NCBI GenBank assembly: GCA_947561715.1
Contig: OX387202.1
Location: forward strand, 5,965,001 to 6,029,000
From: Ascidia mentula
Lineage: Eukaryota > Chordata > Ascidiacea > Phlebobranchia > Ascidiidae
DNA length: 64,000 bases
Direction of reading: 5' to 3'
Position numbers and translations under genes: made by a program. The notes beneath the pieces are model-generated. The model did not search any database. It saw nothing but the letters and a program-made list of their open reading frames with translations, and was not told the DNA's origin. Positions 27,101-64,000 of the stretch are shown in pieces (the stretch's first letter is position 1; each line of letters begins with the position of its first letter).

Positions 27101-27181
27101 AATAGGTAATTTTCGAAATATTTTTCTTGAAAAAACTAAAAAACAACAAACACCTACTCACGTTTACATTCTTCCTTAAAA

Positions 27182-27907
27182 ATGCAACCCAAAAACTACA
27201 CGATGATACAAACCAGAGAAGGACAAAAGAAATTCACTTGCAATATATGTGAAAAACAAATTACTTTGAGAAATTTAAAACCTCACAGTTGGATACACAC
27301 AGGGGAAAAACCTTACAAATGTAAAATTTGCGGAAAGCCATTTCGACAAAATGCACAGCTCAGAGATCACATCAGGATTCACACCGGCGAAAGACCTTTT
27401 AAATGTAAAGTATGTGAAAAAACTTTTAATGTTGCTAGTCATGTAAAGCAGCACCTTCGGATACACACTGGAGAAAAACCTTATCAATGTGATATTTGTA
27501 AAAAAAAATTATCTTCAAAAGGCAGTTTGAAGCTACACTTTCGTACGCATACTGGAGAGAAACGTTATAAATGTGATGTTTGCGAAAAGCAATTCACATA
27601 CTCTTGGAATTTAAAGGAGCATATTGCAACACACGCAAGGGAGAAAAGGCACAAGTGTGATGTATGTGAGAAAAATTTTCGGCGCAGAAATACTCTAAAT
27701 CTACATCTCCGTACACATACAGGAGAAAAACCTTACAAATGTGAGATTTGCAAAAAGCAATTTACGCAAAGTGGAACATTAAAGACTCACGTGAGAATAC
27801 ACTATGGGGAACGACCTTACAAATGCAAAGTTTGTGAAAAACGTTTTACCACTGGAGGACAGTTAAAGGTTCATACCCGGACTCACACTGGAGAAAAGCC
27901 TGTGTGA
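27182..27907 (+). CDS. C2H2 zinc-finger protein, eight fingers
   Basis: A single open frame of 241 residues starts [18 protein letters not shown] and runs as eight tandem C2H2 fingers joined by HTGEKP-type linkers. Finger 1 is one residue short between its Cys and His pairs. The fifth linker is HAREKR instead of TGEKP. Such arrays bind DNA in the nucleus, usually as transcription regulators; the target cannot be told. There is no KRAB, BTB or ZAD domain, so the frame is almost all fingers. The chosen ATG follows an AT-rich 5' leader with a possible upstream acceptor near 27,090. The frame stops right after the last EKP, and finger-like sequence continues beyond it in another frame. Confidence 0.88.
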
Positions 27908-36300: not shown

Positions 36301-39300
36301 ACTTGAGCCGTGTTTTCGGTGTACGCAATTCACTCAGTGCAGTGACTGCACTCGGCGCAGTGACTTCATTAGGCGCAATGACTTTTCTCGATGCAGTGAC
36401 TTCACTCGGGGCAGTGACCTCACTCGGCGCAGTGACTTCGCTCGGCGCAGTGACCTTACTCGGTGCAGCAGTAACTGCACTCTGTTCAGTGACCTCACTG
36501 AAATGTGCTTCCCCCTATAATTCATGCACGTCACCAATTGACATCACTTAACTGTACTCTGATTTGATTGCGAAATACTTTAAACCATATCGCTTATTTA
36601 ATACAAATTTCCAAGAAGCCAACGTAACAACATCAAATGCAAACCAAGTTTATTTAAATTACTTGCATGGAATGCAACAGAAACTCCTTTTTTGGGCGTT
36701 TGTAGCACATTTCATGTGTGTCCATCTCTTGCTAAAATCACATGAAATCTATGAACACAAAAACAGCATGTGACCCCTTAAAGTTAAAGGCCTGGTCATG
36801 GTTGCATCACAATTTGGGCATTGGAGATGCCCTCCTTTTTTGTTGGGTTTCCATTTTTTGGCATGGAAGTATGCAAGGCAAACAATAACCTATAAAGTAA
36901 CATATTCAAATTCACCTTACTGTCATCTACCTTTTGATATATTGGGCTGTTACTTCCTTTTGCCATGTGTACGAACCCCGGTTATAATGTGTTGATTAAA
37001 GACCTCAGTGGTAATTTAGAGTAGACCACATTTCAAAAAGCGAATGACAACAAATAAAGTTGAATTAATTATTACATAATGTTTAATATTATGTTCAACC
37101 TCAGCATCAACATTAACATGTTCTATTAAATATTTTAACATACCTTCCAGCCCTATATATACTAAGTGGTATGCCTTCAGTTAAAATGCTGTGTGATTCC
37201 ATGATATTCTATATCAGTAAAAATTTCATTACGCAGCACACATCGTGCAGATAATGTCAATGTTTGCTTGTAAGCATGGACGTCAGGAAAAAAAATATTC
37301 ATTTTGATGCTATTATTAAGGACACGTAAATTCAGGTATGACTCTTAAAGAACACAGCATAAGAAGGTATAAATAACAAGAAATGCTCGCAGGCTACACC
37401 AGGAACTTTGAGTGAAGTAGCTTTACCGAGTAAGGTTGGAAGTCCCTTCACCGAGTACGGTGATCGATGAAGTTACTTCACCGAAGCACACATTTTTACG
37501 CACAACCCCTGTTGAACATTTCAGCGCCTAATGGACACGGTATGTCTGTATTTTAAATATTTTGACGTTTACCTTGATGACATCTTAATACCAAGTTTAA
37601 CTGAAGATTTCTTAAACAGTTGCTTCCGACGCCCATGTCGAGACACAACAATTCTCCCAAGAGTGTTGAAAAGCACCAAGACGAGTAAATACGTGTTTGA
37701 TCAATGCGACACCCACAGAACACCCTAAAGGTCCCTTTAAATTGATACAGCGAGCGATCAAGACGTTTTTACATGATCTGGCGGTCGCGACCAACACGTA
37801 TCCATCAATTGGTTGAAGCCAGAGCACGTTGTCTTGTCCGTGCCCGTTAAGGTAGCGCGCCTCAGGCCGCCGGGAAGAACGGGACTCGACGTCACGTACG
37901 CTCAGCTTTGCCATGCGTGACGATTGCCCGCTGCTGAAGGGTGTTCTGTGGCGCCCACATTGAACTTGTCACAAACTGTGTGCAGCGAAACGTGTAATGT
38001 GCCTTTTTCGCATACACATTTTTTAACCACTGTACACATTTTTTAACCACTTTAACAGACACGTTCTGTGGCGTATAAACTAAAGTTGCAACCGCATTAG
38101 TCTGGTGAAAAAACAAATGATGCATTTACCAATGCAGATGAATTTAATGTAACAATACATGACAAGGTACTTTCACGAGATGTTGGAGGAAGATATAATG
38201 CATTCAGCGTCTTCGCTATCACAGGAATGACCACGAGGACTTGTAAGGACTGAAAAACCTAATTTAGGAACCACTTCTCCAGACGATTGGTCAACTGTGA
38301 TTGCGTTTCAGTACGGAACAAAAGCATTTCCTTGCTTTTGTTTCGCAAGAATCGGCCGTGTTTCCTCCCAATTTGCTAAATGGAAGAGCTGTGCACCAAC
38401 AGTTAAATGGATTTGCACTGAACATGGCGTATGTAAAAATACCAACGACATTAACTGATATAAGCTACTTTTACACGACTCGATTTGTGTTACACGATTA
38501 AACTTTGTGACTTTGCTTGGGATGCCAATGCGAACGAGCAGACATATCATGGGAACATGTTGGATTAGTTCGCGAGAAACCTGCGAAAAACCTTTGGACG
38601 AACAGAGGACCGTTGTTCCCAGGCAAGTGTTATGGTCGACGACAGTGATACCAACAATGCGTGACGATGAGGAGTTACTGGAAATCAAATTGGACCGAAA
38701 CCCGTCGACCTAACAAATGTCACAAGTGGTTGTGCAAACAATTCTTCCTTCTTTTTCAACATCTCTATTGATTCGTTTGTTTTAACACCACTTAATTTAT
38801 TCACTGATTTTTCTTTGTTGATTTGATATTGTTATTTTGCACACGCGCGGGTGTAGATTATTATTTATTTAATTTGGCATTATCAACACATACTTTGTAA
38901 ACACATTCCTTCTTTTTTTGAATTTACTTATATTTACGAAAATTTAGACACAAAGATAGCCTCAGTTTTCTTATGGCTTTTGGCCTTTTTTGGCGGTGAT
39001 TAATTGCTGCCGTGTAACTATAAGCTGGTTGGACACCAAGTTGTGTCGAAGTTTGGTTTGAGGCAGAGGAGCAGGTGGTGTGTAATGCGAAGAGGGCGGG
39101 CGAACAGTTGCCACCCTTCCTTTGTGCGGCGCAAGCAGGCTTTACGGCCTAGATGCAACGAAAGACTTGGGTGTGATTGTGTTGCCTTATTTTGGAGAGC
39201 AATCTAACACATTGATGTGACCTCCTGCAGATTTTCAAATCAAATTGTTTGTACGCCCACATGTTACACTACTTTATTCGGACGGCGCAGGAGATATGCC

Positions 39301-42300
39301 CGATGTGTGAGGTGCGGTGTACAAAACATACTGTGGCAACCATGACGTGGTCGATATTGGTGAGATTGGCCGCGCATTACGAACACGACTAAAGAAACAT
39401 CAGGGTTACGAAATTAAAAGACAGAAGTCTACGGAAGCATCGATTTAGCAGCATGTAGCGAGTTTCATGCGTAGGTAAGATAAAAAATTGCCACGATCTT
39501 CAGAATGTCGCTAAATTATAGTTAAGGTATGGGGGAATAAAATATTACATAACGATATGCAACATTAGGCATTTAAATAGCTAAGCCTGTAACATTCGTT
39601 CTTTCGCCCGTTGGTTTTTTGTTCGCGACACTCACAAAAGTTCGTATGTGTTGAACGAAGTCATGAACTCACTCACCGGTTTCATCAACAGTTTAGTCTT
39701 CTCGGATAGATATTTGGCACCAAGGCGTGTCAGGCCGCATCTACTCAGATCCACTTCTTGAATGTTTTGGATGCAGTCGGCCACGTAAACCGCACCAAGG
39801 TCTTCTATATTGTTGTGGGTGAGGTCGAGCATCTTCAACTGAATGTAGTAATATCCAAGTAAAACAAATTGTGTGAATAAAAACAATACCAATAAATGAT
39901 ACCAAAACAATCATTTGAAAACAAAAAACATCGATGTGCTTTTCTTTTAAAATGTTTTTAATTTTGCCGGATAATGCACCGAAAAGTTAATAAACAACAT
40001 TATTTTCAGCTGGCGCAGAAGTATTGCCATGCTTACGCATAGCAAGGCGGGATAGCCCCACTGCGCAGGCCCTTTATATTTGGCGATCACAGCTCTAATA
40101 TTCTGATCATAAGGTTCACAGGCTTCGCAGTCAAGGCATTTTCAGCTGTTTTCTCCAAGGAAGAACAGTTGCAAAATTTGCGTCGCTTGATTCAGGTGTT
40201 TGATGAAAACGATCTAAGTTGCCGGATGGAGATCAACTAATTCGTGCGACAAATATCTCAGGATTTACTCACGAGAAAGTTGCATATGCTCACAGCAAAT
40301 TGTTTGGCTAGATGGGGGCTAATCTTACCCCAGTTCACCTAGGAGGTAAAACTATTTCAACGTGTACCACCTAGTTGAGTGTTACAAACTAGATCAATTA
40401 CGATTTTTTAAATTCGAACTATTACCGATAATTACGGAAAGGTACTCTTGTCCAACCTGGAATGCCGTCGCGTACCACTAGTTGGGAAACACTGACCTAT
40501 GATATTGAGTACAGACTTAGAGCTAGTAAACGATCTCACAATTATGAGGAGAAAGCAACCGTGGATTCCGGTGCAAACTTTTAAAAATTTTCTTTACATA
40601 TGATTTGTTAACGCAGTGCTAACATAACATGGGAAATGGTGCCCTGGGGTCAACTCAGCATGGGATTTCACAAATGTCGATACGTCATCCCTGCCTCGAT
40701 TCAGAGAAGAGTAATCTTGCGCCACGCGGGTTTTCCATATATTTCTCGAATCGTTAATCAGTGGGCATCACAATGTTCAAGAATACTCATTGACATTGCT
40801 CAGGATTGGGTAAAAGTGCCAGAGGTATAACAACTGGTTTTTATGGCATACGTGATACATTGAATAAACTTAAATTTTTGTGGAAAATATTATGTAAAAT
40901 CATAAATTGTTGATAATTGTAAAAGAGAAAATTGTGAGTAAGATGTTGTCGTCGTCAGAGATACAACATTTACTTTTGGACGATATTGTGGAGAAACAGC
41001 AGCTAACAAATATGTTGGAGTGTCCAAAATTTGTAATGGACAAATTGTGCATATGTCGTCAAATACATTGAGACAAAACTTGACTGGAGCTGCACAGGTT
41101 TTACGTCCGCTTAACAATTTCAGTTATTAAAGTAACAGAAACCCTGAGGAATATAGGGGTTCTAAAAAAACACCAAGAAAAAAATTGGGAAGCAATTGTC
41201 TCCGTATGCGTTTCACCTTTCTCGCCAAGAGCGCCCATCACGCTTATTCAAATTGCCTTCCTTAAGCGACGGAAAGCTATCGGCGTAGGTGATCATCACA
41301 CGTGCTTCCGGTTTATACTTGTTGGAGTTGGAAATCAAGTTAGGCAATATTTCGGGTCCCGGTCAAGTACGTACAATGCATCCAAGAGCGGAGACCTTGA
41401 GTTCTGGGGAGGAGGCACAGGAGCAGGAGATAGGAAACGTGGAGAAGGCGAGCGAACGGTTGCCACCCTTCCTTTATGCGGCATAACCAGGATTTGCACT
41501 GAACATGGCGTATGTAAAAATACCAACGACATTAACTGATATCAGCTACTTTTACACGACTCGATTTGTGTTACACGATTAAACTTTGTGACTTTGCTTG
41601 GGACGTCAATGCGAACGAAGAGACATATCATAGAAACATGTTGGATTAGTTCGCGAGAAACCTTTGGACGAACAGAGGAGCGTTGTTCCCAGGCAAGTGT
41701 TATGGTCGACGACAGTGATACCAACAATGCGTGACGATGAGGAGTTACTGGGAATCAAGTTGGACCGAAACCCGTCGACAGAACAGGTGTCACAAGTGGT
41801 TGTGCAAACAATTCTTCCTTCTTTTTCAACATCTTTATTGATTCATTTGTTTTAACACCACTTAATTTATTCACTGATTTTGCTCTGTTTGTTTCATATT
41901 GTTTATTTTGCATACACGTGTGCATGTATCATTATTTACTTAATTTGGCGTCATCAACACTTAACTTTTCTTTCTAAACACATTCCTTCTTTTGTAATTT
42001 TACTTCTATGTATAAAACTTTCGACACAAAGATAGCCTCAGTTTTCTTGTGGCTTTTGGCCTTGTTTTTGGCGGTGATTTGTTGCTGCCAGTTAATCAAA
42101 AGCATAGGCTATTTAAAATCTCATCAAAAATTCTCATCAAATTGTTTGAACGCCCCCCTGTTACACTACGTTATTCGGACGGCGCAGGAGATATGCCCGA
42201 TGTGTAAGGTGTGGTGTACTATACACACTGTGGCAACAGCGACTTGGTCGATATTAGTAAGCCTGGACGCGCATTACGAACACGACTGAAGAAACATCAG

Positions 42301-45300
42301 GGTTACGTAATTACCTGCCAGAAGTCTACGGAAACGTCGATTTAGCAGCATTTAGCATGTTTGCCGCATAAGTAAGATAAAAAATTGCCATGATATTCAG
42401 AATGTTACTAAATTATAGTTAAGGTATAGGGGAATAAAACATTTAAAACATAACATAGCGATATGGCAACAGTAGGTATTTAAATAACTAAGCCTGTAAC
42501 TTTCCTTCTTTCGTGCGTTGGATTTCTGTTTTCTCGACACTCACAAAAGTTCGTGTGTGTTGAACGAATTCCGACCAAATCATAAAATCACTCACCGGTT
42601 TCATCAACAGTTTAGTCTTCTCGGATAGATGTTTGGCACCAACGCATGTCAGACCGCATCTACTCAGATCCACTTCTTCAATGTTTTCGATGCAGTCGGC
42701 CACGTAAACCGCACCAAGGTCTTCTATATTGTTGTGGGAGAGGTCGAGCGTCTTCAACTGAATGTAGTAATATCCAAGTAAAACAAATTGTGTGAATAAA
42801 AACAATACCAATAAATGATATTAAAACAATCATTTGAAAACAAAAAATATCGATGTGCTTTTCTTTAAAATGTTTTTAAATTTTGTCGGATAATGCACCG
42901 AAAATTTAATATACGACATTTTTTTCAGTTGATTTCTCCAAGGAAGTACAATTGCGAAATTTGCGTCGCTTGTTTCAGGTGTAAGGTTCACAGGCTTCGC
43001 AGCCAAGGCATTGCAGCCAAGCTGGATCTGCCACTTTTCCCGACAAGTCGGAGCGAGATCTGAAAAATCAAGCTCCCGGTGAGGTTTGAACTCACGACCC
43101 TGGGCTAACCAGGCCCAACGCTCTACCAACTGAGCTACAGGAGCTCAGTGGCTTCACGGGGTATATTGTGGCCAAGGTACACTGGTGCGCAAGCGCACAA
43201 CTTGTCGGGCGACCTACACATGCGTAGAGGATCTCCACCACCGACTCACCGGGAGCTTGATTTTTCAGATCTCGCTCCGACTTGTCGGGAAAAGTGGCAG
43301 ATCCAGCTTGGCTGCAATGCCTTGGCTGCGAAGCCTGTGAACCTTATGATCAGAATATTAGAGCTGTGTATATCGCCAAATATAAAAGGGCCTGCGCAGT
43401 AGGGCGATCCCGCCTTGCTATGCGTAAGCATGGCGTTACTTCTGCGTTGTTTCAGGTGTTTGATGAAAACGATCTAAGTTGCCGGATGGAGATAAACTAA
43501 TTCGTGCGACAAATATCTCAGGATTTACTCAAGAGAAAGTTGCATATGCTCACAGCAAATTGTTTGGCTAGATTGGGGCTAATCTTACCCCAGTTCACCT
43601 AGGAGGTAAAACTATTTCAACGTGTACCACCTAGTTGAGCGTTACAAATTAGATTACTTACGATTTTTTAAATTCGAACTATTACCGATAATTACGGAAA
43701 GGTACTCTTGTCCAAACTGGAATACCGTCGCGTACCACCGGTTGGGAAACACTGATCTATGATATTGATTTATGCATAGATGCGATGAAGTAACTCCCAT
43801 GGGTGTGATTGTGTCCTCATTTTGGAGAGCTATCTGGCAATTTGGTGCGTCGTCTTACAGATGTTACACTACGTTCTTCTGAATGCACAGGAGATATGCC
43901 CGAAGTGTGTGGTGTGTTTGTGGTTTGTGTGGTGTGTGCGGTGTGTGTGGTGTGCGTGTGGTGTGTGTGGTGTGTATGGTGTGTGTGGTGTGTGTGGTGT
44001 GTGTGGTGTGTGTGGTGTGTGTGGTGTGTGTGGTGTGTGTGGTGTGTGTGGTGTGTGTGGTGTGTGTGGTGTGTCTGGTGTGTGTGGCGAATCACACCGT
44101 GGCAACTGCGACGTAGTCGATCTTGGTGAGACTGACCGCGCATTACGAACACGACTGAAGAAACATCAGGGTTACGTAATTACCTGCCAGAAGTCTACGG
44201 AAACGTCGATTTAGCAGCATTTAGCATGTTTGCCGCATAAGTAAGATAAAAAATTGCCATGATATTCAGAATGTTACTAAATTATAGTTAAGGTATAGGG
44301 GAATAAAACATTTAAAACATAACATAGCGATATGGCAACAGTAGGTATTTAAATAACTAAGCCTGTAACTTTCCTTCTTTCGTGCGTTGGATTTCTGTTT
44401 TCTCGACACTCACAAAAGTTCGTGTGTGTTGAACGAATTCCGACCAAGTCATAAAATCACTCACCGGTTTCATCAACAGTTTAGTCTTCTCGGATAGATG
44501 TTTGGCACCAACGCATGTCAGACCGCATCTACTCAGATCCACTTCTTCAATGTTTTCGATGCAGTCGGCCACGTAAACCGCACCAAGGTCTTCTATATTG
44601 TTGTGGGAGAGGTCGAGCGTCTTCAACTGAATGTAGTAATATCCAAGTAAAACAAATTGTGTGAATAAAAACAATACCAATAAATGATATTAAAACAATC
44701 ATTTGAAAACAAAAAATATCGATGTGCTTTTCTTTAAAATGTTTTTAAATTTTGTCGGATAATGCACCGAAAATTTAATATACGACATTTTTTTCAGTTG
44801 ATTTCTCCAAGGAAGTACAATTGCGAAATTTGCGTCGCTTGTTTCAGGTGTAAGGTTCACAGGCTTCGCAGCCAAGGCATTGCAGCCAAGCTGGATCTGC
44901 CACTTTTCCCGACAAGTCGGAGCGAGATCTGAAAAATCAAGCTCCCGGTGAGGTTTGAACTCACGACCCTGGGCTAACCAGGCCCAACGCTCTACCAACT
45001 GAGCTACAGGAGCTCAGTGGCTTCACGGGGTATATTGTGGCCAAGGTACACTGGTGCGCAAGCGCACAACTTGTCGGGCGACCTACACATGCGTAGAGGA
45101 TCTCCACCACCGACTCACCGGGAGCTTGATTTTTCAGATCTCGCTCCGACTTGTCGGGAAAAGTGGCAGATCCAGCTTGGCTGCAATGCCTTGGCTGCGA
45201 AGCCTGTGAACCTTATGATCAGAATATTAGAGCTGTGTATATCGCCAAATATAAAAGGGCCTGCGCAGTAGGGCGATCCCGCCTTGCTATGCGTAAGCAT

Positions 45301-48300
45301 GGCGTTACTTCTGCGTTGTTTCAGGTGTTTGATGAAAACGATCTAAGTTGCCGGATGGAGATAAACTAATTCGTGCGACAAATATCTCAGGATTTACTCA
45401 AGAGAAAGTTGCATATGCTCACAGCAAATTGTTTGGCTAGATTGGGGCTAATCTTACCCCAGTTCACCTAGGAGGTAAAACTATTTCAACGTGTACCACC
45501 TAGTTGAGCGTTACAAATTAGATTACTTACGATTTTTTAAATTCGAACTATTACCGATAATTACGGAAAGGTACTCTTGTCCAAACTGGAATACCGTCGC
45601 GTACCACCGGTTGGGAAACACTGATCTATGATATTGATTTATGCATAGATGCGATGAAGTAACTCCCATGGGTGTGATTGTGTCCTCATTTTGGAGAGCT
45701 TTCTGGCAATTTGGTGCGTCGTCTTACAGATGTTACACTACGTTCTTCTGAATGCACAGGAGATATGCCCGAAGTGTGTGGTGTGTTTGTGGTTTGTGTG
45801 GTGTGTGCGGTGTGTGTGGTGTGTGTGTGGTGTGTGTGGTGTGTATGGTGTGTGTGGTGTGTGTGGTGTGTGTGGTGTGTGTGGTGTGTGTGGTGTGTGT
45901 GGTGTGTGTGGTGTGTGTGGTGTGTGTGGTGTGTGTGGTGTGTTTGGTGTGTGTGGCGAATCACACCGTGGCAACTGCGACGTAGTCGATCTTGGTGAGA
46001 CTGACCGCGCATTACGAACACGACTGAAGAAACATCAGGGTTACGTAATTACCTGCCAGAAGTCTACGGAAACGTCGATTTAGCAGCATTTAGCATGTTT
46101 GCCGCATAAGTAAGATAAAAAATTGCCATGATATTCAGAATGTTACTAAATTATAGTTAAGGTATAGGGGAATAAAACATTTAAAACATAACATAGCGAT
46201 ATGGCAACAGTAGGTATTTAAATAACTAAGCCTGTAACTTTCCTTCTTTCGTGCGTTGGATTTCTGTTTTCTCGACACTCACAAAAGTTCGTGTGTGTTG
46301 AACGAATTCCGACCAAGTCATAAAATCACTCACCGGTTTCATCAACAGTTTAGTCTTCTCGGATAGATGTTTGGCACCAACGCATGTCAGACCGCATCTA
46401 CTCAGATCCACTTCTTCAATGTTTTCGATGCAGTCGGCCACGTAAACCGCACCAAGGTCTTCTATATTGTTGTGGGAGAGGTCGAGCGTCTTCAACTGAA
46501 TGTAGTAATATCCAAGTAAAACAAATTGTGTGAATAAAAACAATACCAATAAATGATATTAAAACAATCATTTGAAAACAAAAAATATCGATGTGCTTTT
46601 CTTTAAAATGTTTTTAAATTTTGTCGGATAATGCACCGAAAATTTAATATACGACATTTTTTTCAGTTGATTTCTCCAAGGAAGTACAATTGCGAAATTT
46701 GCGTCGCTTGTTTCAGGTGTAAGGTTCACAGGCTTCGCAGCCAAGGCATTGCAGCCAAGCTGGATCTGCCACTTTTCCCGACAAGTCGGAGCGAGATCTG
46801 AAAAATCAAGCTCCAGGTGAGGTTTGAACTCACGACCCTGGGCTAACCAGGCCCAACGCTCTACCAACTGAGCTACAGGAGCTCAGTGGCTTCACGGGGT
46901 ATATTGTGGCCAAGGTACACTGGTGCGCAAGCGCACAACTTGTCGGGCGACCTACACATGCGTAGAGGATCTCCACCACCGACTCACCGGGAGCTTGATT
47001 TTTCAGATCTCGCTCCGACTTGTCGGGAAAAGTGGCAGATCCAGCTTGGCTGCAATGCCTTGGCTGCGAAGCCTGTGAACCTTATGATCAGAATATTAAA
47101 GCTGTGTATATCGCCAAATATAAAAGGGCCTGCGCAGTAGGGCGATCCCGCCTTGCTATGCGTAAGCATGGCGTTACTTCTGCGTTGTTTCAGGTGTTTG
47201 ATGAAAACGATCTAAGTTGCCGGATGGAGATAAACTAATTCGTGCGACAAATATCTCAGGATTTACTCAAGAGAAAGTTGCATATGCTCACAGCAAATTG
47301 TTTGGCTAGATTGGGGCTAATCTTACCCCAGTTCACCTAGGAGGTAAAACTATTTCAACGTGTACCACCTAGTTGAGCGTTACAAATTAGATTACTTACG
47401 ATTTTTTAAATTCGAACTATTACCGATAATTACGGAAAGGTACTCTTGTCCAAACTGGAATACCGTCGCGTACCACCGGTTGGGAAACACTGATCTATGA
47501 TATTGATTTATGCATAGATGCGATGAAGTAACTCCCATGGGTGTGATTGTGTCCTCATTTTGGAGAGCTATCTGGCAATTTGGTGCGTCGTCTTACAGAT
47601 GTTACACTACGTTCTTCTGAATGCACAGGAGATATGCCCGAAGTGTGTGGTGTGTGTGTGGTGTGTGTGGTGTGTGTGGTGTGTGTGGTGTGTGTGGTGT
47701 GTGTGGTGTGTGTGGTGTGTGTGGTGTGTGTGGTGTGTGTGGTGTGTGTGGTGTGTCTGGTGTGTGTGGCGAATCACACCGTGGCAACTGCGAGGTAGTC
47801 GATCTTGGTGAGACTGACCGCGCATTACGAACACGACTGAAGAAACATTAGGGTGACGTAATTAACTGCCAGGAGTCCACAGAAACAACGATTTTGCAGC
47901 ATGTAGCGAGTTTGGTGCATTTGGATAGATCTTAAAATGGCATGATCTTCAGAATGTCATTAAGTTATATTTGGGGTATATAGTGGAAATACAATTGTTA
48001 AGCTTTATATAGCCATTGGGCGACAGTAGACATTTAAATAACTAAGCCTGTAACTTTCGAATTGCGACTACGACATCAAATAACTCACCGGTTTTTTCAA
48101 CAGCCTAATCATATCCGATAGATATTTGGCACCAACACTTGTGAGGCCGCATCCACTCAGATTCACTTGTTCAATGTTTTGGATGCATCCCCCCACGCGA
48201 ACTGCACCAAGGTCTTTTATATTGCTGCGATAGATGTTGAGCAACCTCAGCTTAACGAAATAATATCGATGTTAATCAAATTGCGAATAACAATAACCAC

Positions 48301-53579: not shown

Positions 53580-55800
53580 ATGGTAAAATCTTCACCTAGA
53601 TGAAAAAGACATGAAGTGGACACTAGATCACAGGGCGTTAACGGTGTCGAACACCAAGTGATGTCGAACACCATAACAATCAAAGACAGCATCAGACCAT
53701 ACCCAATTGCCAGTAAACGTTTGTCTTGAGGAAAAGTTTAAAATTTTATCGTGCAGTACTTCAAACACGATGGAATGGATCGCTTTTGTTAAAAATACGA
53801 ATTTGTCAATTCTACGATCGTATGTTCTTCACAATGTGATACAGTTAATGGTTCCACCGCCAATGTTAGTGACAAACAAATAGACCTGCCGGAGGGTATC
53901 ACGAATTGCAAATTGTATTTGTCCGGTATCTGGCGATGCAACTTGCCGCTACCACCGGATTCAGCCATCTGGAGCAGAACGTAAGCGCGGCCAACAAAAC
54001 AGTGGTTACTGCTGATGTTCGCGACTTCCTTCAACAGATGCGACTCGGTGAGGAACTCACGACGTACAAACAAGACGCGTTACACTCACAAACATTCGTG
54101 TGATGGAGGAATTCCGTGAATAACAATCACACAAGCAATCAAACAAATAATGGCGTGTAACAACGTATATGGAGGTCGTGCCGTTTTGTTTAGAGTTTGC
54201 TTCAGAGAAATATAACTGCGTGTTTTGTTTAAAATACAAAGTTTAAACAAACTTAAGTTTCATTCAGTGACGCGAGAACGTGCATCACGTGCACTTATTA
54301 CACGCATTTGTACTTGAAATTAAAATCGATTTTCCTAATATTGTTTTGGATAAATCTCCAATTCGCTACCTAATGTGTTAAATTGTAATGATGGAAAAGT
54401 AATTTCACCAGTGTTCCGCAATTTCGCCCGTAACCATTCTTGACGTTTGTTTCCCATGTTTGGCCGTTTGACCCGTGATTGATGGTGTCCATTGATTTAT
54501 GTCCTGCTGTGTTTTATCTGTTGCGCTCTTTTGTACTTTTTCATCGCTTAATTTCTTTGCCCGTGGGTTCGCTACTGTGTTTGTTGTATTCTCTGAAGAA
54601 GCCTAATCGTACGTACAGGCGAAACGTCAGAAAATACCATCTTTTTTATACAAAAGGTGTATATTTGTTGTTTTTCAACAGAAGAACGTCAGATTCATAT
54701 TTCATTAAGGTATAAATAGCTGGCTAACAACAATGGTTCCGAACCGTTCGATTAGCGACCGCAAAAAAGCAGCATGTTTCATTGTTCAGACAAAACATCC
54801 ATAAATATGAGACAACTGGCTTCGAAAATAATCCAGCCACAAATATTCGGTCAAGAATCTATAACGAACAATATTACGTCACACAAATATTTTAAAGGCC
54901 GTTACCATATAAAGATATGTGGGAAAGTGTGTCACAAACACGAACATCTTTGATCCGACTTTGCACCAACTTGGTTAAATCGACCAAAAATTCAAAACTT
55001 CTCTTCGTCGTGGTCGCGCGTGTTAACCAATTTTGTCGTGATCGCTTTCCAGAAGCTTTCTTTTAAAACATAATATTATTAAACTTTTCTTATGTTTTGC
55101 CGTACTTTCTGCTTTCACAAAATGACCAAACATCGAAATAACACAGATTTCCCGCTAAAACTAAACGCACAAACAATGGAATTATTCAGTTTTTGTGCTA
55201 CAATAATTAACGGCTGTGAGGTCATATTACGACCGAAATGACGAATTGTGCCGTAAGGTGCAATACTTGAACTCTTACAAATTGCCAAAAGATGAACCTT
55301 TGGACGCGCTTCTTTCAAATAATTCATTTATCCGACGAAGGAGAATTTATATTGGAGGGAGTTAAACACCAAACATCAAAAACCGTAAAATTTATGATGA
55401 TTAATGTAACGGACAGAACAGGGTATGATTTCTGTTTGGTGCATTCATGCGTGAAAACTTGTCTCGTGTTTGGTTTGTGCGAGCTTATAATGTTGTGTGG
55501 GTATATCCATTGGAATGTGGTTAGTCTTGCGTTGTTTTAATGCCTTTTTGGTTGATTCTATTTGAATAAGGTGGAGCCGTGCAGGCATTTAGTTTTGAAT
55601 CGTATCTATTCTAATTTATTATATGTCTGCTGTGAAACTGTTACAAACTGCAAATGGAATAAAAGGTAGAATTGAACGCATACAAAAAATTACACGGCAA
55701 TCGAGGATCTCTATCCTACATTGAATTCAAAACTAAAGTCAAAACTGTGTTGTTTTGAGTTACGTCTGTAATCTGTTCACATTGTGACGTAATACGCAAC
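53580..55800. other. No recognisable gene
   Basis: Several short frames. Near 54.6 kb, CTGAAGAAGCC followed by GGCGAAACGTC resembles the conserved repeat tail also seen at 21.86 kb (GGCGAGACTTCTTCAGG, inverted). No gene can be supported. Confidence 0.35.
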
Positions 55801-55808
55801 TTGCATAG

Positions 55809-55983
55809 TTGCTTGGGATGGATGAATCAGGCGAGGAGCCCAATGTTTCTAAGGAACTGTTTAAAATACTGGACGTTGTGCGCTCGGGAAATGGTTCTGT
55901 AAGGAGATCAAACGCTTCAACAAACTGTGGTTCCCTTGGCAAAAGTTTGCGTTCAAACAGCTCGCGTGCACGTAGACTTGTCG
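55809..55983 (+). mobile_element. Coding-like stretch left of the foldback element (gag-like?)
   Basis: An open plus-strand stretch rich in Ser, Arg and Glu, ending exactly where the foldback element begins. With the stretch at 63.09-64.0 kb it may be the 5' part of a BEL/Pao-like retroelement or of a host gene. The identity is not established. Confidence 0.25.
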
Positions 55984-55992
55984 ATGAAAATC
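55984..55992. repeat. Target-site duplication, left (ATGAAAATC)
   Basis: Nine bases repeated exactly at 63084-63092, directly outside the inverted ends of the foldback-like element. Confidence 0.85.
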
Positions 55993-56516
55993 GGTAAATG
56001 CTACTACACCAGAACACAGCCAGGTCACAAACCCTCAATGGGGATTACCCCATGTATACCAGTGAAAACTGTAGGATACTCAGTGGGAATTTCCCTTATT
56101 CGATACTTGCCGTTCTGAGTTGAACACGTGTTGATAGCATACCTAAACTGGCGTGCGAACTGCAAGTTCAATCTGCGAGGTGACATCTTTCGCAGATAGT
56201 TCAATGTACATAGGTTCTACTCTTAACGAACAATTTCAAGGACCTTTTCTTGTTTGCCACAAAATGCATGCGCCACGTGTGCGTGCCAAACAGTTACCAG
56301 TTCTGTGGATTAGGCCAAAGATATTGTTCTTCGGCTATAAACCATGGGAAATGACAAAAACATGCAACTTCAACCAAAATAAACTTATATCATTGGCCCT
56401 ACACATCTATTACACAACAGCAACTGACATACAAATATCTTCCACCAGCGCATGCATTGATTTTCTACAAGATAATGAAACAATATGGACTGTTACGTCA
56501 TACAAGCTATGTGACG
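55993..56516 (+). repeat. Outer inverted arm, left
   Basis: Matches the reverse complement of 62,557-63,083 with few changes. An open frame (CHKMHAPRVRAKQLPVLWIR, with FFGYKPWE later) is present in both arms, but the arms are terminal repeats and gene function is doubtful. Confidence 0.85.
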
Positions 56517-59500
56517 TGTTAATAGCTTCTTTGGGTGTGACACCGGAACACAGCCAGGTTGGAAAACCTGACGTGAACTGCAGCTTGTTGGTTTAACTAT
56601 GTTTGCTAAAAGTCTTGCTGTGGCTGTGACAGTTTTTAAAGCGGCGAGTTGTGCGGTGATTGTGGAAAGTATTTGAGCTGTTAATAGCTTCTTTAGGTGT
56701 GACACCGGAACACAGCCAGGTTGGAAAACCTGACGTGAACTGCAGCTTGTTGGTTTAATTATATTTGCTAAAAGTCTTGCTGTTGCAGTGACAGCTTTTA
56801 AAGCGGCGAGTTGTGCGGTGATTGTGGAAAGTATTTGAGCTGTTAATAGCTTCTTTAGGTGTGACACCGGAACACAGCCAGGTTGGAAAACCTGACGTGA
56901 ACTGCAGCTTGTTAGTTTAACTATGTTTGTCAAAAGTCTTGCTGTGGCTGTGACAGCTCTTAAAGCGGCGAGTTGTGCGGTGATTGTGGAAAGTATTTGA
57001 GCTGTTAATAGCTTCTTTAGGTGTGACACCGGAACACAGCCAGGTTGGAAAACCTGACGTGAACTGCAGCTTGTTAGTTTAACTATGTTTGTCAAAAGTC
57101 TTGCTGTTGCAGTGACAGCTTTTAAAGCGGCGAGTTGTGCGGTGATTGTGGAAAGTATTTGAGCTGTTAATAGCTTCTTTAGGTGTGACACCGGAACACA
57201 GCCAGGTTGGAAAACCTGACGTGAACTGCAGCTTGTTAGTTTAACTATGTTTGTCAAAAGTCTTGCTGTGGCTGTGACAGCTCTTAAAGCGGCGAGTTGT
57301 GCGGTGATTGTGGAAAGTATGTGAGCTGTTAATAGCTTCTTTAGGTGTGACACCGGAACACAGCCAGGTTGGAAAACCTGACGTGAACTGCAGCTTGTTG
57401 GTTTAATTATATTTGCTAAAAGTCTTGCTGTTGCAGTGACAGCTTTTAAAGCGGCGAGTTGTGCGGTGATTGTGGAAAGTATTTGAGCTGTTAATAGCTT
57501 CTTTAGGTGTGACACCGGAACACAGCCAGGTTGGAAAACCTGACGTGAACTGCAGCTTGTTAGTTTAACTATGTTTGTCAAAAGTCTTGCTGTGGCTGTG
57601 ACAGCTCTTAAAGCGGCGAGTTGTGCGGTGATTGTGGAAAGTATGTGAGCTGTTAATAGCTTCTTTAGGTGTGACACCGGAACACAGCCAGGTTGGAAAA
57701 CCTGACGTGAACTGCAGCTTGTTAGTTTAACTATGTTTGTCAAAAGTCTTGCTGTGGCTGTGGCAGCTCTTAAAGCGGCGAGTTGTGCGGTGATTGTGGA
57801 AAGTATGTGAGCTGTTAATAGCTTCTTTAGGTGTGACACCGGAACACAGCCAGGTTGGAAAACCTGACGTGAACTGCAGCTTGTTGGTTTAATTATATTT
57901 GCTAAAAGTGTTGCTGTTGCAGTGACAGCTTTTAAAGCGGCGAGTTGTGCGGTGATTGTGGAAAGTATTTGAGCTGTTAATAGCTTCTTTAGGTGTGACA
58001 CCGGAACACAGCCAGGTTGGAAAACCTGACGTGAACTGCAGCTTGTTAGTTTAACTATGTTTGTCAAAAGTCTTGCTGTGGCTGTGACAGCTCTTAAAGC
58101 GGCGAGTTGTGCGGTGATTGTGGAAAGTATGTGAGCTGTTAATAGCTTCTTTAGGTGTGACACCGGAACACAGCCAGGTTGGAAAACCTGACGTGAACTG
58201 CAGCTTGTTGGTTTAATTATATTTGCTAAAAGTCTTGCTGTTGCAGTGACAGCTTTTAAAGCGGCGAGTTGTGCGGTGATTGTGGAAAGTATTTGAGCTG
58301 TTAATAGCTTCTTTAGGTGTGACACCGGAACACAGCCAGGTTGGAAAACCTGACGTGAACTGCAGCTTGTTAGTTTAACTATGTTTGTCAAAAGTCTTGC
58401 TGTTGCAGTGACAGCTTTTAAAGCGGCGAGTTGTGCGGTGATTGTGGAAAGTATTTGAGCTGTTAATAGCTTCTTTAGGTGTGACACCGGAACACAGCCA
58501 GGTTGGAAAACCTGACGTGAACTGCAGCTTGTTGGTTTAATTATATTTGCTAAAAGTCTTGCTGTTGCAGTGACAGCTTTTAAAGCGGCGAGTTGTGCGG
58601 TGATTGTGGAAAGTATTTGAGCTGTTAATAGCTTCTTTAGGTGCGACACCGGAACACAGCCAGGTTGGAAAACCTGACGTGAACTGCAGCTTGTTAGTTT
58701 AACTATGTTTGTCAAAAGTCTTGCTGTGGCTGTGACAGCTCTTAAAGCGGCGAGTTGTGCGGTGATTGTGGAAAATATATGTGAGCTGTTAATAATAGCT
58801 TCTTTAGGTGTGACACCGGAACACAGCCAGGTTGGAAAACCTGACGTGAACTGCAGCTTGTTGGTTTAATTATATTTGCTAAAAGTCTTGCTGTTGCAGT
58901 GACAGCTTTTAAAGCGGCGAGTTGTGCGGTGATTGTGGAAAGTATTTGAGCTGTTAATAGCTTCTTTAGGTGCGACACCGGAACACAGCCAGGTTGGAAA
59001 ACCTGACGTGAACTGCAGCTTGTTAGTTTAACTATGTTTGTCAAAAGTCTTGCTGTGGCTGTGACAGCTCTTAAAGCGGCGAGTTGTGCGGTGATTGTGG
59101 AAAATATATGTGAGCTGTTAATAATAGCTTCTTTAGGTGTGACACCGGAACACAGCCAGGTTGGAAAACCTGACGTGAACTGCAGCTTGTTAATTTAATT
59201 ATATTTGCTGAAAGTCTTGCTGTTGCAGTGACAGCTTTTAAAGCGGCTAGTTATGCGGTGATTGTGTAAAGTATGTCAACTGTTAATAGCTTCTTTAGGT
59301 GTTACACCGGAACACAGCCAGGTTGGAAAACCTGACGTGAACTGCAGCTTGTTGGTTTAACTATGTTTGCTAAAAGTCTTGCTGTTGCAGTGACAGCTTT
59401 CAAAGCGGCGAGTTATGCGGTGGTTGTGGATAGTATATGACGTGTTAACAGCTTCTTTAGGTATGAAGCAAGATTAAAGAACACAGCCAGCCAGGTCAGA

Positions 59501-59520
59501 AAACCCGACGTAGACTGCTA
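56517..59520. repeat. 162-bp satellite array inside the foldback element
   Basis: About eighteen head-to-tail monomers of 162 bp (landmark GCTGTTAATAGC at 56,677, 56,839, 57,001 and so on). Two main monomer types alternate over much of the array: one with GCTGTGGCTGTGACAGCTCT, one with GCTGTTGCAGTGACAGCTTT, giving a 324-bp higher-order period. Outer copies near 59.2-59.5 kb are more diverged than the inner ones. Because 162 is divisible by three, a 740-residue frame stays open on the minus strand. Confidence 0.92.
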
Positions 59521-59543
59521 CTTGTTTTGGAGGCTATTTATAG

Positions 59544-59551
59544 GTTTTAAA
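59544..59551. repeat. 8-bp target duplication of nested hAT element, left (GTTTTAAA)
   Basis: Exact copy of 60573-60580 on the other side of the nested element. Confidence 0.85.
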
Positions 59552-60572
59552 TAGGGATGCACCGAAAGTTAGGTTTGCCGAATTTATTCGGCCAAAACCA
59601 AGGTTTTTAATTATTCGGTTTCGGCCGAATTTTGCAAAATTTTTTTACTGCACGCAACACTGATACGCAAAGTTTAGAATCTTTGTTGAATCTGTACTAG
59701 TGTGTTTTATTTGGTAATTGTCATTGAAATCAACTTTAAGAAGTTGGTATAGCATTCTTTAAGTGCCAATAAAAGGTTGTATGATAGAATCAGAATAGGG
59801 ATGTACCAAATGGACAAAGATTCGGGTTCGTGCGAATCCAAATATATTCCTATGTAAGTGTGACGTCAATAATAGTTGGTCGTTTGCATCACGTGCGCAA
59901 GTATGTTGCTTCACCAACTATTGTTTTGATGTCATACGACAAATAAATTGCAAACAGTTATTTTCTGCAAAGTTTAATAAACTTTTGGAAACCAACAACC
60001 GAGTCTATACTATATCTCAGACGAACAGTGGCCTTTACCGCTAGTGTTTAGGAAATACGATACTTTGATTGACATAACGTGATAAAGCCGATATGTCATG
60101 GTTGACCAAATATAATGTTGAACAACACAGGACTTCCGTTCTTTTGTTTTCAAATGCGCTTCTGTATTTTGGTGACGATAACCCGTGCTATACGAGCAGC
60201 GCCCAGAACTGCAATACGATGTTAGACCAGGATTTTGCTACAATCGCAACGGCATTTTCGTCACGTTTTGTTCAATCGTTGTGACAAACCAATAGCAAAA
60301 ACGACTACACCAATTCTAGTAGCATTATAAGCGGTGTGATACCGTTATTGGTCATGCGAAAAAGACAAAAACTTTGGCGGTTGTATCACACAACCATATT
60401 ATGCTTTAATAAATATTCGCATACGAATCTTGCGCAACATTCGGGTTCGTACGAATCTGAAATCTGTGCTCATATTCGGCGAATCTATTCGGGTTAGAGT
60501 TCGCCTTCGGCAACTTTTAACGAATATTCGGTTTCGGCAGAATAAAAAAAATGCTGTTTCGGTGCATCACTA
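59552..60572. mobile_element. Nested non-autonomous hAT-like element
   Basis: Inverted ends TAGGGATGCACCGAAA (left) and TAGTGATGCACCGAAA (right, reverse strand), with the 8-bp duplication GTTTTAAA. Both features are typical of hAT transposons. The subterminal parts are full of ATTCGG and CCGAAT motifs on both strands. At 1.02 kb without a transposase frame it is non-autonomous. It has landed in a diverged 162-bp monomer, whose sequence resumes at 60,573 (AAAGCAGTAAGTTATGCGGT). A further TAGGGATGTACC at about 59,797 hints at a second insertion inside. Confidence 0.85.
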
Positions 60573-60580
60573 GTTTTAAA

Positions 60581-62020
60581 GCAGTAAGTTATGCGGTGAT
60601 AACATCGGCCCAGCAATAACTTCACACATCGTGATGTCATGCCTTTTGCAGCGTTACATAAGTACCTTGCAGCCTCTTGGGCAACATAACGTGCAATTGC
60701 AACCTCTTGCGCAACATAACCTGCAATTGCAGCCTGTTGCGCAACATAACGCAATATCGCCTTCGTGAACCATTTGTCTTCAGTTAAAGTGATTCATTCA
60801 ACCACATAAAATGTTCGCCCATGCATGTCACACTGCACATTTGTTCTTGTATTATAATAACCGAAGTGATGTATAGCGGCACATGACTAAACCAACCAAT
60901 AAGCCTTCGATAGTAATTGGGCTCGATTCTATTCTTTTCGGAACCATCGTCTATCTTTGATCTTCTATTGTTGACAAGACATTGTAATAATTATTAGGAC
61001 TCTACAAGTTATTCTCCGCCTTGGGATTTATTCCTACAGCCGGATAGTAAACTGATTATTCGGATTCAACTGTTTTCTGGTAAAATCGACAGAATTACAG
61101 TTTGACAGATTTTGGATCAACAAATATAGAAAATTCACGCGTTTGCGCATTCGAAGCACAGTTTAGAGTTAGTCGATCGCAATCGTGTGACATGTGAAAA
61201 GCTTCTTTGTGAAACTGGGACACAACCAGGTTGGAAAACCTGACGTGAACTGCAGCTTGTTAGTTTAATTATGTTTGCTATTAGTCTTGCTGTTGCAGTG
61301 ACGGCTGTTTAAGCGGCGAGTCATGCGGTGATTGTGGAACGTATGTGACGTGTAATAATTCTTTGGTTGTGAAACCGCGACACTAACAGGTCAGAAAACC
61401 TGCCGTGAACTGCAGCTTGTTGTTTAATTATCTTTGCTAATAGTGTTGTTGTGGCTGTGACAACTTATCAAGTGAGTTATGCGGTGATTGTGGAACGCAT
61501 GTGACATATGTTAATAGCTTCAGGAGTGAAACCGGGACACAGCTTGATCAGAAAATCTGACGGCCAACACAATTTGTTAGTGTAGTTGTCTTTTTTGTGT
61601 AACAATGTTAACTGTTACGTCATGGAAGAAATGGCGGGATAAACACGGTTTCTGTGCAGCGTGCGAATGCGTTCGGATGTTTTTTTTTTGCAGTGCATCT
61701 GTTTGTATTTCATATCATGCACCTAAACTTGCACTTTTGTGGTTGTGGCTAACTGTTGATTGTATATTGATTTATTCTCATCATTGGTGGGTTGTGAGTA
61801 TTAATTTTGTTTAATCATGCAGGGAAAATGGAAATAAAAATTCAAAAAAATAATGTAAACACAATTGTGGTTTAAAAAATGAAAAATTTTGAAAACGTAA
61901 GTGCTATGTAACTATATTATGCAAATGCATCAAAACAATATGTGTAACAAAGGTCTTTTTAACAGATTCAAAGAAACAGGCGAGAAAAGAGGTAATACTA
62001 ATGGCCTACCGTTTTGTATG
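60581..62020. other. Central part of the foldback element
   Basis: Holds a worn monomer remnant, three 30-bp repeats at about 60,660-60,755 (GCAACATAACGTGCAATTGC), unique sequence, and two or three worn 162-bp monomers at 61.19-61.57 kb in the same orientation as the left array. No transposase or other gene was recognised. Confidence 0.55.
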
Positions 62021-62024
62021 GTGG

Positions 62025-62556
62025 CTGTGTTCCGGTGTCAAACCTAAAGAAGCTATTTTTAACAGCTCACATATACTTTCCACAATCACCGCACAACTCG
62101 CCGCTTTAAGAGCTGTCACAGCCTCAGCAAGACTTTTAGCAAACATAGTTAAACTAACAAGCTGCAGTTCACGTCAGGTTTTCCAATCTGGCTGTGTTCC
62201 GGTGTCACACCTAAAGAAGCTATTAACAGCTCACATACTTTCCACAACCACCGCATAACTAGACGCTTTAAAAGCTGTCACAACCACAGCAAGACTTTTT
62301 GCAAACATAGTTAAACTAACAAGCTGCAGTTCACGTCAGGTTTTCCAATCTGGCTGTGATCCAGTGTCACACCTAAAGAAGCTATTAACAGCTCACATAC
62401 TTTCCACAATCACCGCATAACTCGCCGCTTTAAAAGCTGTCACTGCGACAGCAAGACTTTTAGCAAACACAGTTAAACCAACAAGCTGCAGTTCATGTCA
62501 GGTTTTCCAACCTGGCTGTGTTCTGGTGTCACACCTAAAGAAGCTATTAACACGTC
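62025..62556. repeat. Inverted 162-bp monomers, right side
   Basis: About 3.4 monomers in the opposite orientation to the left array (GCTATTAACAGCTCACATAC landmark repeated at about 162 bases). This is the inner end of the right arm. Confidence 0.85.
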
Positions 62557-63083
62557 ACATAGCTTGTATGACGTAACAGTCCATATTGTTTCATTATCTT
62601 GTAGAAAATCAATGCATTCGCTGGTGGAATCTATTTGTATGTCAGTTGCTGTTGTGTAATATATGTGTAGGGCCAATGAGATAAGTTTATTTTGGTTGAA
62701 GTTGCATGTGTTTGTCTTTTCCCATGGTTTATAGCCGAAGAACAATATCTTTCGCCTAATCCACAGAACTAGTAACTGTTTGGCACGCACACGCGGCGCA
62801 TGCATTTTGTGGCAAACAAGAAAAGGTGTAGGATCCTTAAAATTGTTCGTTAAGAGTAGAACCGAAGTGCATTGAACTATCTGCGAAAGTTTTCACCTCG
62901 CAGATTGAACTTACAGTTCGCACGCCAGTTTAGGTATGCTATCAACACGTGTTCAACTCCGAACGGCAAGTATCGAATAAGGGAAATTCCCACTGAGTAT
63001 CTTACAGTTTTCAGTGGTATACATGGGGTAATCCCCAATGAGGGTTTGGGACCTGGCTGTGTTCTGGTGTAGTAGCATTTACC
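62557..63083 (-). repeat. Outer inverted arm, right
   Basis: Reverse complement of the left outer arm, ending GGTGTAGTAGCATTTACC at 63,083 directly before the second ATGAAAATC. Confidence 0.85.
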
Positions 63084-63092
63084 ATGAAAATC

Positions 63093-64000
63093 ACTGGCCC
63101 TAAAGTATGCTCAGGAACAAGTTGCCATTAAGGAAGAAAAACTGCTTGTTGAAACTGAACAACGTCGTTTAACGTTGGAATCTGAGCGGCGACGTATACA
63201 ACTTGAAGGGAAAATAAAGAGCTTTGAATTGAAAAAGCAAATGGCTAAAGCCAGGGAAGAGGTGGCACAGGCCACACTCGCTGCTGAAAATGTCAGTTAC
63301 ACTATTGGTTGAGCTTTGCTTGTCCGTAGTGTTTCCACCTTGTTTTCTCCGTAGGTTGCACCTAGTTTGGTGCCCAACGGATGACGGTGATTGCATATAG
63401 TCAAGTCTTTGCTTGGCCGTTGGTCAGCAAAGTCGTCTGAAAGTCACACCAGCTGCACGGATGCAACCTTTTAGGTCGAAACAGTGGCCATCTGTCTGCA
63501 GCTTACTCAATGTCAGTTACAGTTGCTCTTCATCAGAATCTTTGTCTGATATTGTGTTAGATGGTACACCAGCTAAAAGGTTACCAATGAAACGTTTCAC
63601 GTGCTTGACTAAGGCTTTAGATGAGCGGCGTAGCAGAAAAGTTTCAGTTCATGATGTTTCACCAACGTCACTTTCTCTACTAGAAAGATCACATGTTAAT
63701 GCTGCATCTATAAATGTTCGTGCTGATCATGAATCACCGCTTGTCGCATCAAACTCGTTGGGTCCACTGTTAGAATTGGACGAGGCGCATAAAGATTTGC
63801 CGCCGTCCTGGTAGGAAACTGGTATTTTGCCTCCAACCGAAGCTAATATTTCAGGCAAAGGGAGAAATGCTGACATGGAATATGGGACTCTTGATCAAAG
63901 CCCTATGAACCAAACTCCTGGCCCTGCAGTAGGCCTATCAGGTACCCGACCGACTTCAGATATGGTGTTTTTTGCTGAAATGATTAAACAAAGTTTTAAT
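63093..64000 (+). mobile_element. Coding-like stretch right of the foldback element (gag-like?)
   Basis: Plus-strand frames look coding: first a strongly charged, coiled-coil-like part (YAQEQVAIKEEKLLVETEQR and on to about 63.31 kb), then a Ser-rich part at 63.41-63.81 kb, then more to the window edge (FFAEMIKQSF). The order of coiled coil then unstructured part resembles the N-terminal region of BEL/Pao gag proteins, but a host gene is not excluded. It is disturbed by the foldback insertion and runs off the window. Confidence 0.3.

Follow-up and report, generated by a model that had tools for sequence, protein, structure and literature searches.

A 64-kb stretch of the genome of the sea squirt Ascidia mentula (contig OX387202.1, positions 5,965,001 to 6,029,000; hereafter the window, meaning all 64,000 nucleotides) contains a 7,091-bp element at window positions 55993-63083, which is enclosed by two identical 9-bp copies of ATGAAAATC and begins with GGTAAATGCTACTACACCAGAACACAGCCAGGTC at both ends. 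This is a real two-ended, non-autonomous element of the Foldback type, which was inserted as one unit into a copy of a repeated sequence with duplication of its 9-bp target, as two shorter relatives with the same tip were elsewhere. It is very probably a cut-and-paste DNA transposon of Foldback shape that is moved in trans, with the Mutator-like element (MULE) superfamily as its most likely affiliation. An earlier note on this DNA, made from the sequence alone, had proposed a complete Foldback-like insertion with a 9-bp target site duplication (TSD), and the proposal is supported by the perfect TSD, by other two-ended copies and by empty sites.

Structure, insertion site and copies of the element

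The element and its insertion site are made up of the following parts, with array copy numbers from Tandem Repeats Finder (TRF):

55743..55992, + strand: host repeat, left part (searched part only)
55984..55992, + strand: left TSD, ATGAAAATC, which occurs once in empty sites
55993..57042, + strand: left half of the continuous inverted match (94%)
55993..56516, + strand: left unique arm, starting with GGTAAATGCTACTACACCAGAACACAGCCAGGTC
56006..56025, + strand: 20-bp tip motif ACACCAGAACACAGCCAGGT of the left end
56517..59466, + strand: left array, 18.1 copies of a 162-bp unit
59467..62021: core between the arrays (2.5 kb), with no transposase detected
59552..60572: nested non-autonomous element, presumably hAT-like, 1,021 bp (TAGGGATGCACCGAAA..TTTCGGTGCATCACTA)
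61207..61505, + strand: degenerate array, 1.9 copies of a 160-bp unit in the left-hand orientation, about 80% like the main unit
62022..62561, - strand (opposite to the left array): right array, 3.3 copies of the 162-bp unit
62022..63083, - strand: right half of the continuous inverted match (94%)
62562..63083, - strand: right unique arm, an inverted copy of the left
63051..63070, - strand: 20-bp tip motif of the right end
63084..63092, + strand: right TSD, ATGAAAATC, matching the left copy at 9/9
63084..63297, + strand: host repeat, right part (similarity to the long matches stops near 63297)

When the two ends are aligned as inverted copies, 1,050 left and 1,062 right bases take part, with 999 of 1,062 columns identical and 12 gaps. 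The earlier note had described matching inverted ends of about 525 bp. The match itself stands, while its true extent is about 1.05 kb, because the outer repeat units of the arrays take part in it along with the unique arms of about 525 bp. The same note had seen inner satellite arrays in opposite orientation, one of them with 18 copies, in agreement with the TRF counts. Long inverted ends with internal tandem repeats are the structural mark of the Foldback class, and the mobility of that class is seen here in repeated ends with TSDs and in empty sites. Elsewhere in the window, ATGAAAATC has one further copy on the + strand, at 1541, and none on the - strand.

Empty sites were sought with a 500-base query in which 250 flank bases from each side were joined without the element. 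Searches covered 195,842,439 bases in 79 contigs; the relevant part of the published genome note for Ascidia mentula gives 196,975,169 bp in 95 scaffolds (PMC11109543). At least 44 genomic matches to the joined flanks were obtained (the best 40 of 389 candidates scored), and 13 places cover at least query positions 1-455 or 2-453 in one alignment each, at 81-94% identity, with small indels and target lengths of 453-537. Since the joined flanks match elsewhere without the element, empty sites exist and the host is itself a repeated sequence. At the three places inspected at the junction, one from the 13 and two shorter matches, the target is present once and there is a one-base length difference in an A-run. 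The search for an empty site that the earlier note had suggested was thus positive.

Further copies were found with queries of decreasing length. The first 217 bases from the TSD on gave 22 genome matches and 70 bases of the tip gave 19, the window's own two included in each case, and the 24-bp terminus gave 40 matches at up to 3 mismatches vs 0 for a reversed control. Two copies are two-tipped and lie in different flanks, one of 455 bp (C70:2263317-2263771) with the TSD CTCTGTATT at 9/9 and one of 836 bp (C52:19962077-19962912) with the TSD AAGGTRGTT at 8/9; they provide the same-end copies with 9-bp duplications for which the earlier note had recommended a search. That note had named beforehand a lack of copies with the same ends, or likeness of flanks beyond the ends, as grounds for giving up the transposon, and neither was observed. 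Exact tips at L004, L006 and L007 had no partner end in the sequence examined there, and the more divergent tips at L019, L020, L022 and L024 had no good partner in theirs. At L022, just outside the family tip, a 366-bp tandem repeat at positions 1621-3058 changes over into an inverted copy of itself. The related, near-identical tips L015-L018, on contig C2 at 12.08-12.29 Mb, go back to a single segment that is present four times through duplication; in the sequence examined, each copy has one end.

The TSDs follow a consistent rule. Nine two-ended loci were tested, the window included; four have a 9-bp TSD at 9/9, three have one at 8/9, one has a perfect 8-bp TSD and one (L089, from the terminus group described below) has none. 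A 9-bp TSD at 8/9 or better is therefore found in 7/9 loci, and an 8- or 9-bp TSD with at most one mismatch in 8/9. The locus with the perfect 8-bp TSD, L026, is 228 bp long and was found via the window tip. For MULEs, a TSD of 8-11 bp and mostly 9 bp is expected, as found in the window at 9/9. Elements of the P superfamily have TSDs of 7-8 bp, whereas here the length is 9 bp in the window and in six further loci at 8/9 or better, with the perfect 8 bp of L026 in addition.

These copies also bear on an extremely unlikely alternative, namely that the locus is a locally rearranged satellite, an inverted duplication of the 162-bp array, with no mobile unit. Tandem arrays and strong inverted symmetry would be expected of such a structure, and array fragments are present on C71, where tips were not found in the sequence examined. 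The perfect TSD and the two-ended copies in different flanks argue against it, and it is refuted by the empty sites. The array was also considered as a genomic satellite and rejected: its unit has at least 52 matches (17 candidates scored), mostly inside copies of the family.

Termini and their probable relation to MULE transposases

The window tip belongs to a wider group of termini. An 18-bp terminus, GGWARATRCTAMTACACC, has 419 genome matches at up to 1 mismatch vs 2 for the reversed control, and GGAARATACTAMTACACCGGGGCC has 143 at up to 2 mismatches vs 0 for the control. Six loci of the GGAARATACTAMTACACCGGGGCC/GGWARATRCTAMTACACC group were examined (L084-L089), and three are short elements with TSDs (L085 at 9/9, L084 and L088 at 8/9). 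L089 has a doubtful second end and no TSD; at L086, which was left outside the nine-locus TSD test, the second end is poor (6 mismatches) and the flanks show no visible TSD; none was seen at L087. Across the group, termini grade from the window type (GGTARATGCTACTACACCAGRACACAGCCAGGTC) to the type that bounds MULE-coding elements, and the window tip runs on into the extension ACACAGCCAGGTC and then into the arm.

The proposed connection of these termini to MULE proteins runs through two loci. L092 (C52:9406905-9412845) is a 5,941-bp element that has GGAAGATACTACTACACC at each end and lies between perfect 9-bp TSD copies, AGTATGGGG; the sequence into which it was inserted is similar to part of the element's interior, and this internal homologue stands in for an empty site. 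Its 612-amino-acid (aa) open reading frame (ORF; L092 2899-4734, - strand) matches Peptidase_C48 (1.9e-13), SWIM (2e-6) and PHD (4.5e-6) in one reading frame, and L092 encodes the C-terminal part of a MULE protein (SWIM, Ulp1-like, PHD). The second locus, C2:18410963, has an L092-type terminus with a PF10551 domain 3.8 kb inside; it has about 110 bp of end sequence that matches L092 by eye, and no second end turned up within the 8.5 kb examined. GGAARATACTAMTACACCGGGGCC has four exact matches in the genome, three of which lie in these two loci.

The MULE domain itself is well represented in this genome, with 49 matches to PF10551 from 76 candidates, 48 of them above the cut-off. The MULE-domain ORF of L055 matches PF10551, the ZSWIM RNase H-like domain and ALS2CR8, and two of the MULE-domain loci among L048-L077, L052 and L053, are 97% alike over 3.2 kb. 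At the DNA level, L092 aligns with many of the 30 PF10551 loci examined. Its alignments to MULE loci reach 1.4 kb at 79%, and the one to the C2 locus L051 spans 0.7 kb at 90%.

Several observations weigh against a MULE as the mover of the window element. The window tip has 15 of 18 terminal bases in common with L092 and no other alignable sequence. Neither the PF10551 genome search nor tblastn with the L055 peptide detected a MULE catalytic domain in L092, which is probably defective itself for this reason. The window tip and arm are found in none of the 30 of 49 MULE loci that were examined with 1.5-kb flanks, and a comparison of coordinates by eye placed no PF10551 match within 40 kb of any of 40 tips. 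On C1, C2 and C52, 2/75 termini have a PF10551 match at a distance of 6 kb or less vs 0.43 expected, a weak proximity in that 142 of 2000 random runs reached two close termini, and one of the two adjoins a neighbouring copy instead of lying inside its own element. With so little proximity between tips and MULE domains overall, the case for a MULE depends on the two loci and on how the tips grade into one another. The earlier note had also suggested looking for an autonomous copy with a transposase between the arms; none was found among the 30 MULE loci checked directly or the other 19 checked by coordinates.

Open frames near C2:18417123 (L091) and C2:18410900 (L090), which adjoin the C2 MULE locus, resemble a P transposase by eye. 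The frame near C2:18417123 is of interest for the alternative that the mover belongs to another superfamily, of the P/Galileo or Merlin type, with the likeness of the tip to MULE-bearing elements being convergent or borrowed. This alternative would also accommodate the finding that the transposase-bearing relative and the window tip have only the outermost 18 bp in common, and the Foldback shape is known from several superfamilies, Galileo having a P-type transposase (PMC3688188, PMC3169594). It is nevertheless improbable in view of the 9-bp TSD at 8/9 or better in 7/9 two-ended loci and of termini that grade from the window type to that of the MULE-coding elements. In the favored model, a MULE transposase encoded at another locus would recognize the tip (GGTAAATGCTACTACACC...) and move the element in trans.

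Arrays, core and neighboring sequences

The tip motif recurs within the arrays. ACACCAGAACACAGCCAGGT is found in 18/18 left units at 19/20, with one fixed change, and in the right array with 0, 4, 2 and 4 mismatches. At up to 5 mismatches, it matches the window once outside the element, at 5418, and the degenerate array once, at 61212; its reversed control has one match. Among the 18 left units, 31 of 162 columns are variable, and a 50-column block that starts with the tip motif (columns 23-72) is invariant; an invariant run of this length arose in 8 of 100,000 column shuffles. Conservation of the motif in the left units might be a sign of amplified transposase-binding sites, for which it is suggestive only. 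Two points tell against such a role: in the three right-hand units, five columns of the block are variable, including four in the 20-bp motif, and the column shuffle leaves out exchange among units, so that concerted evolution alone could yield an invariant block.

Junctions between tips and units were seen in two copies. The right tip of L005 passes directly into unit sequence at the motif. In L003, it is the left tip that joins unit sequence, near the motif. These junctions suggest exchange between the tip and an array unit. A less secure part of the model is that the 162-bp units would be amplified copies of the inner tip, serving as additional predicted transposase-binding sites, and that unequal exchange between tip and units would keep rewriting the arms. 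In its fullest form, selection would maintain the amplified arrays as platforms to which transposases of a MULE lineage with SWIM, Ulp1-like and PHD domains bind, and exchange between the tip and its near-identical counterpart in the units would rebuild the ends, so that long Foldback arms become short miniature inverted-repeat transposable element (MITE) ends and the reverse. This extension is tentative and rather doubtful.

A coding function for the repeat was considered as well. The 162-bp unit, 54 codons in length, has one open frame on the minus strand, which gives rise to an ORF of 790 aa at 56493-58865. When units were shuffled, 1140 of 5000 retained at least one open circular frame, and a 150-aa frame, taken from a part of the array other than the 790-aa frame, had no Pfam match at the cut-off. 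A coding array is highly unlikely and was rejected as a candidate, such open frames being common in shuffled units.

Reading frames of at least 80 aa that touch the core are 81, 99 and 121 aa long. The 99-aa frame had no match in Pfam, the other two lying outside that search, and when the whole window was searched by tblastn with four peptides of two MULE loci, no MULE remnant appeared at E <= 1. Pieces of the core match many genomic places (at least 92 matches, with the best 40 of 929 candidates scored). The nested element within the core is flanked by 8-bp copies of GTTTTAAA at 59544-59551 and 60573-60580, and we take it to be hAT-like from its end sequence and this 8-bp TSD. Its inner part, 59827-60512, has about 30 further genomic matches without the outer part and is perhaps a second nested or shared module. 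A core-bearing fragment at C52:14603606-14605516, where tips were not found in the sequence examined, contains the nested element with identical GTTTTAAA junctions, from which it follows that the hAT-like insertion preceded the copying of this core to at least one other locus. In L078, array and core sequence is present and the nested element is absent.

Other features of the window lie upstream. These are a C2H2 zinc-finger ORF with 7 finger stretches (27140-27904, + strand), part of a secretin-family seven-transmembrane receptor (PF00002; 30428-30973, - strand), 7.8 copies of an 18-bp repeat (TTCACTCGGCGCAGTGAC; 36329-36468) and about three tandem copies of a 1,869-bp unit that are about 99% alike, each with a GTGTGTG-rich 9-bp array (42224-47769).

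Comparison with known systems

No description of this family in Ascidia mentula was found in the open-licence papers searched. The suggestion of the earlier note that the family is undescribed is thus plausible for this animal, while the architecture is already known from Tetris, Tm1 and Foldback. In the sections drawn on here, a 2019 survey describes the evidence for MULEs in chordates as limited and names a single sequence, from Ciona savignyi, as the exception (PMC6446971). In this one sea squirt, there are 49 MULE-domain matches, 419 matches to related termini and a Foldback-shaped family. The presence of the tip motif in every left unit offers a testable answer to the question of why such elements grow long repetitive arms, and if the arrays do act as binding platforms, this would be the first Foldback-type MULE family worked out in a chordate.

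The systems below are compared as described in the parts of the cited sources that were consulted. Rehavkus has TSDs of 9 bp and Phantom has TSDs of 8-10 bp; Rehavkus and aphid Phantoms both carry minisatellites towards the 3' end, a PHD finger is found in Rehavkus, and Phantom is listed for Tunicata (PMC6446971). By description, the present family resembles both in TSD length and minisatellites, and its putative transposase-bearing relatives resemble Rehavkus in the PHD finger. The terms 'Ulp1', 'ULP' and 'C48' are absent from the main text of the same survey. Galileo, of the P superfamily in Drosophila, has long terminal inverted repeats (TIRs) of Foldback shape, the repeats of which contain tested secondary transposase-binding sites (PMC3688188). 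Its transposase is of the P type with a THAP domain, whereas a MULE is indicated here.

Tm1, a Mutator/Foldback family of root-knot nematodes, has TIRs of composite build that contain tandem repeats, and its TSDs are 9 bp long. Its non-autonomous classes include MITE-like ones, and a MULE-coding member is rare (PMC3169594). These traits find a likeness in the present family and, for the MULE-coding member, in its putative relatives. The two differ in that Tm1 has units of 13-15 bp and a transposase placed in Phantom with FLYWCH (PMC3169594), while the related transposase loci here have SWIM, Ulp1-like and PHD domains.

Tetris, a Foldback element of Drosophila virilis, has a long TIR in which an outer flanking domain is followed by tandem repeats of about 220 bp. 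Its middle has no apparent coding capacity, no more than three of its copies are structurally complete, and its TSDs measure 8-10 bp, from which its authors put it in Mutator (PMC4079207). A 37-bp stretch is about 80% alike between its flanking domain and its repeat, and the repeats were proposed to originate from the flanking domain (PMC4079207). The likeness extends to TIR layout, non-coding middle, scarcity of complete copies, TSD length and a motif common to tip and repeat. In contrast to Tetris, which has an unrelated host, the unit here is 162 bp long, no large dispersed satellite was seen (at least 52 matches), the motif common to tip and unit falls within the outermost 33 bp, and a MULE-type protein is encoded by relatives whose terminal 18 bp are similar. 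The best reading of the element is a new family of a known kind, with Tetris in Drosophila and Tm1 in nematodes as its close precedents.

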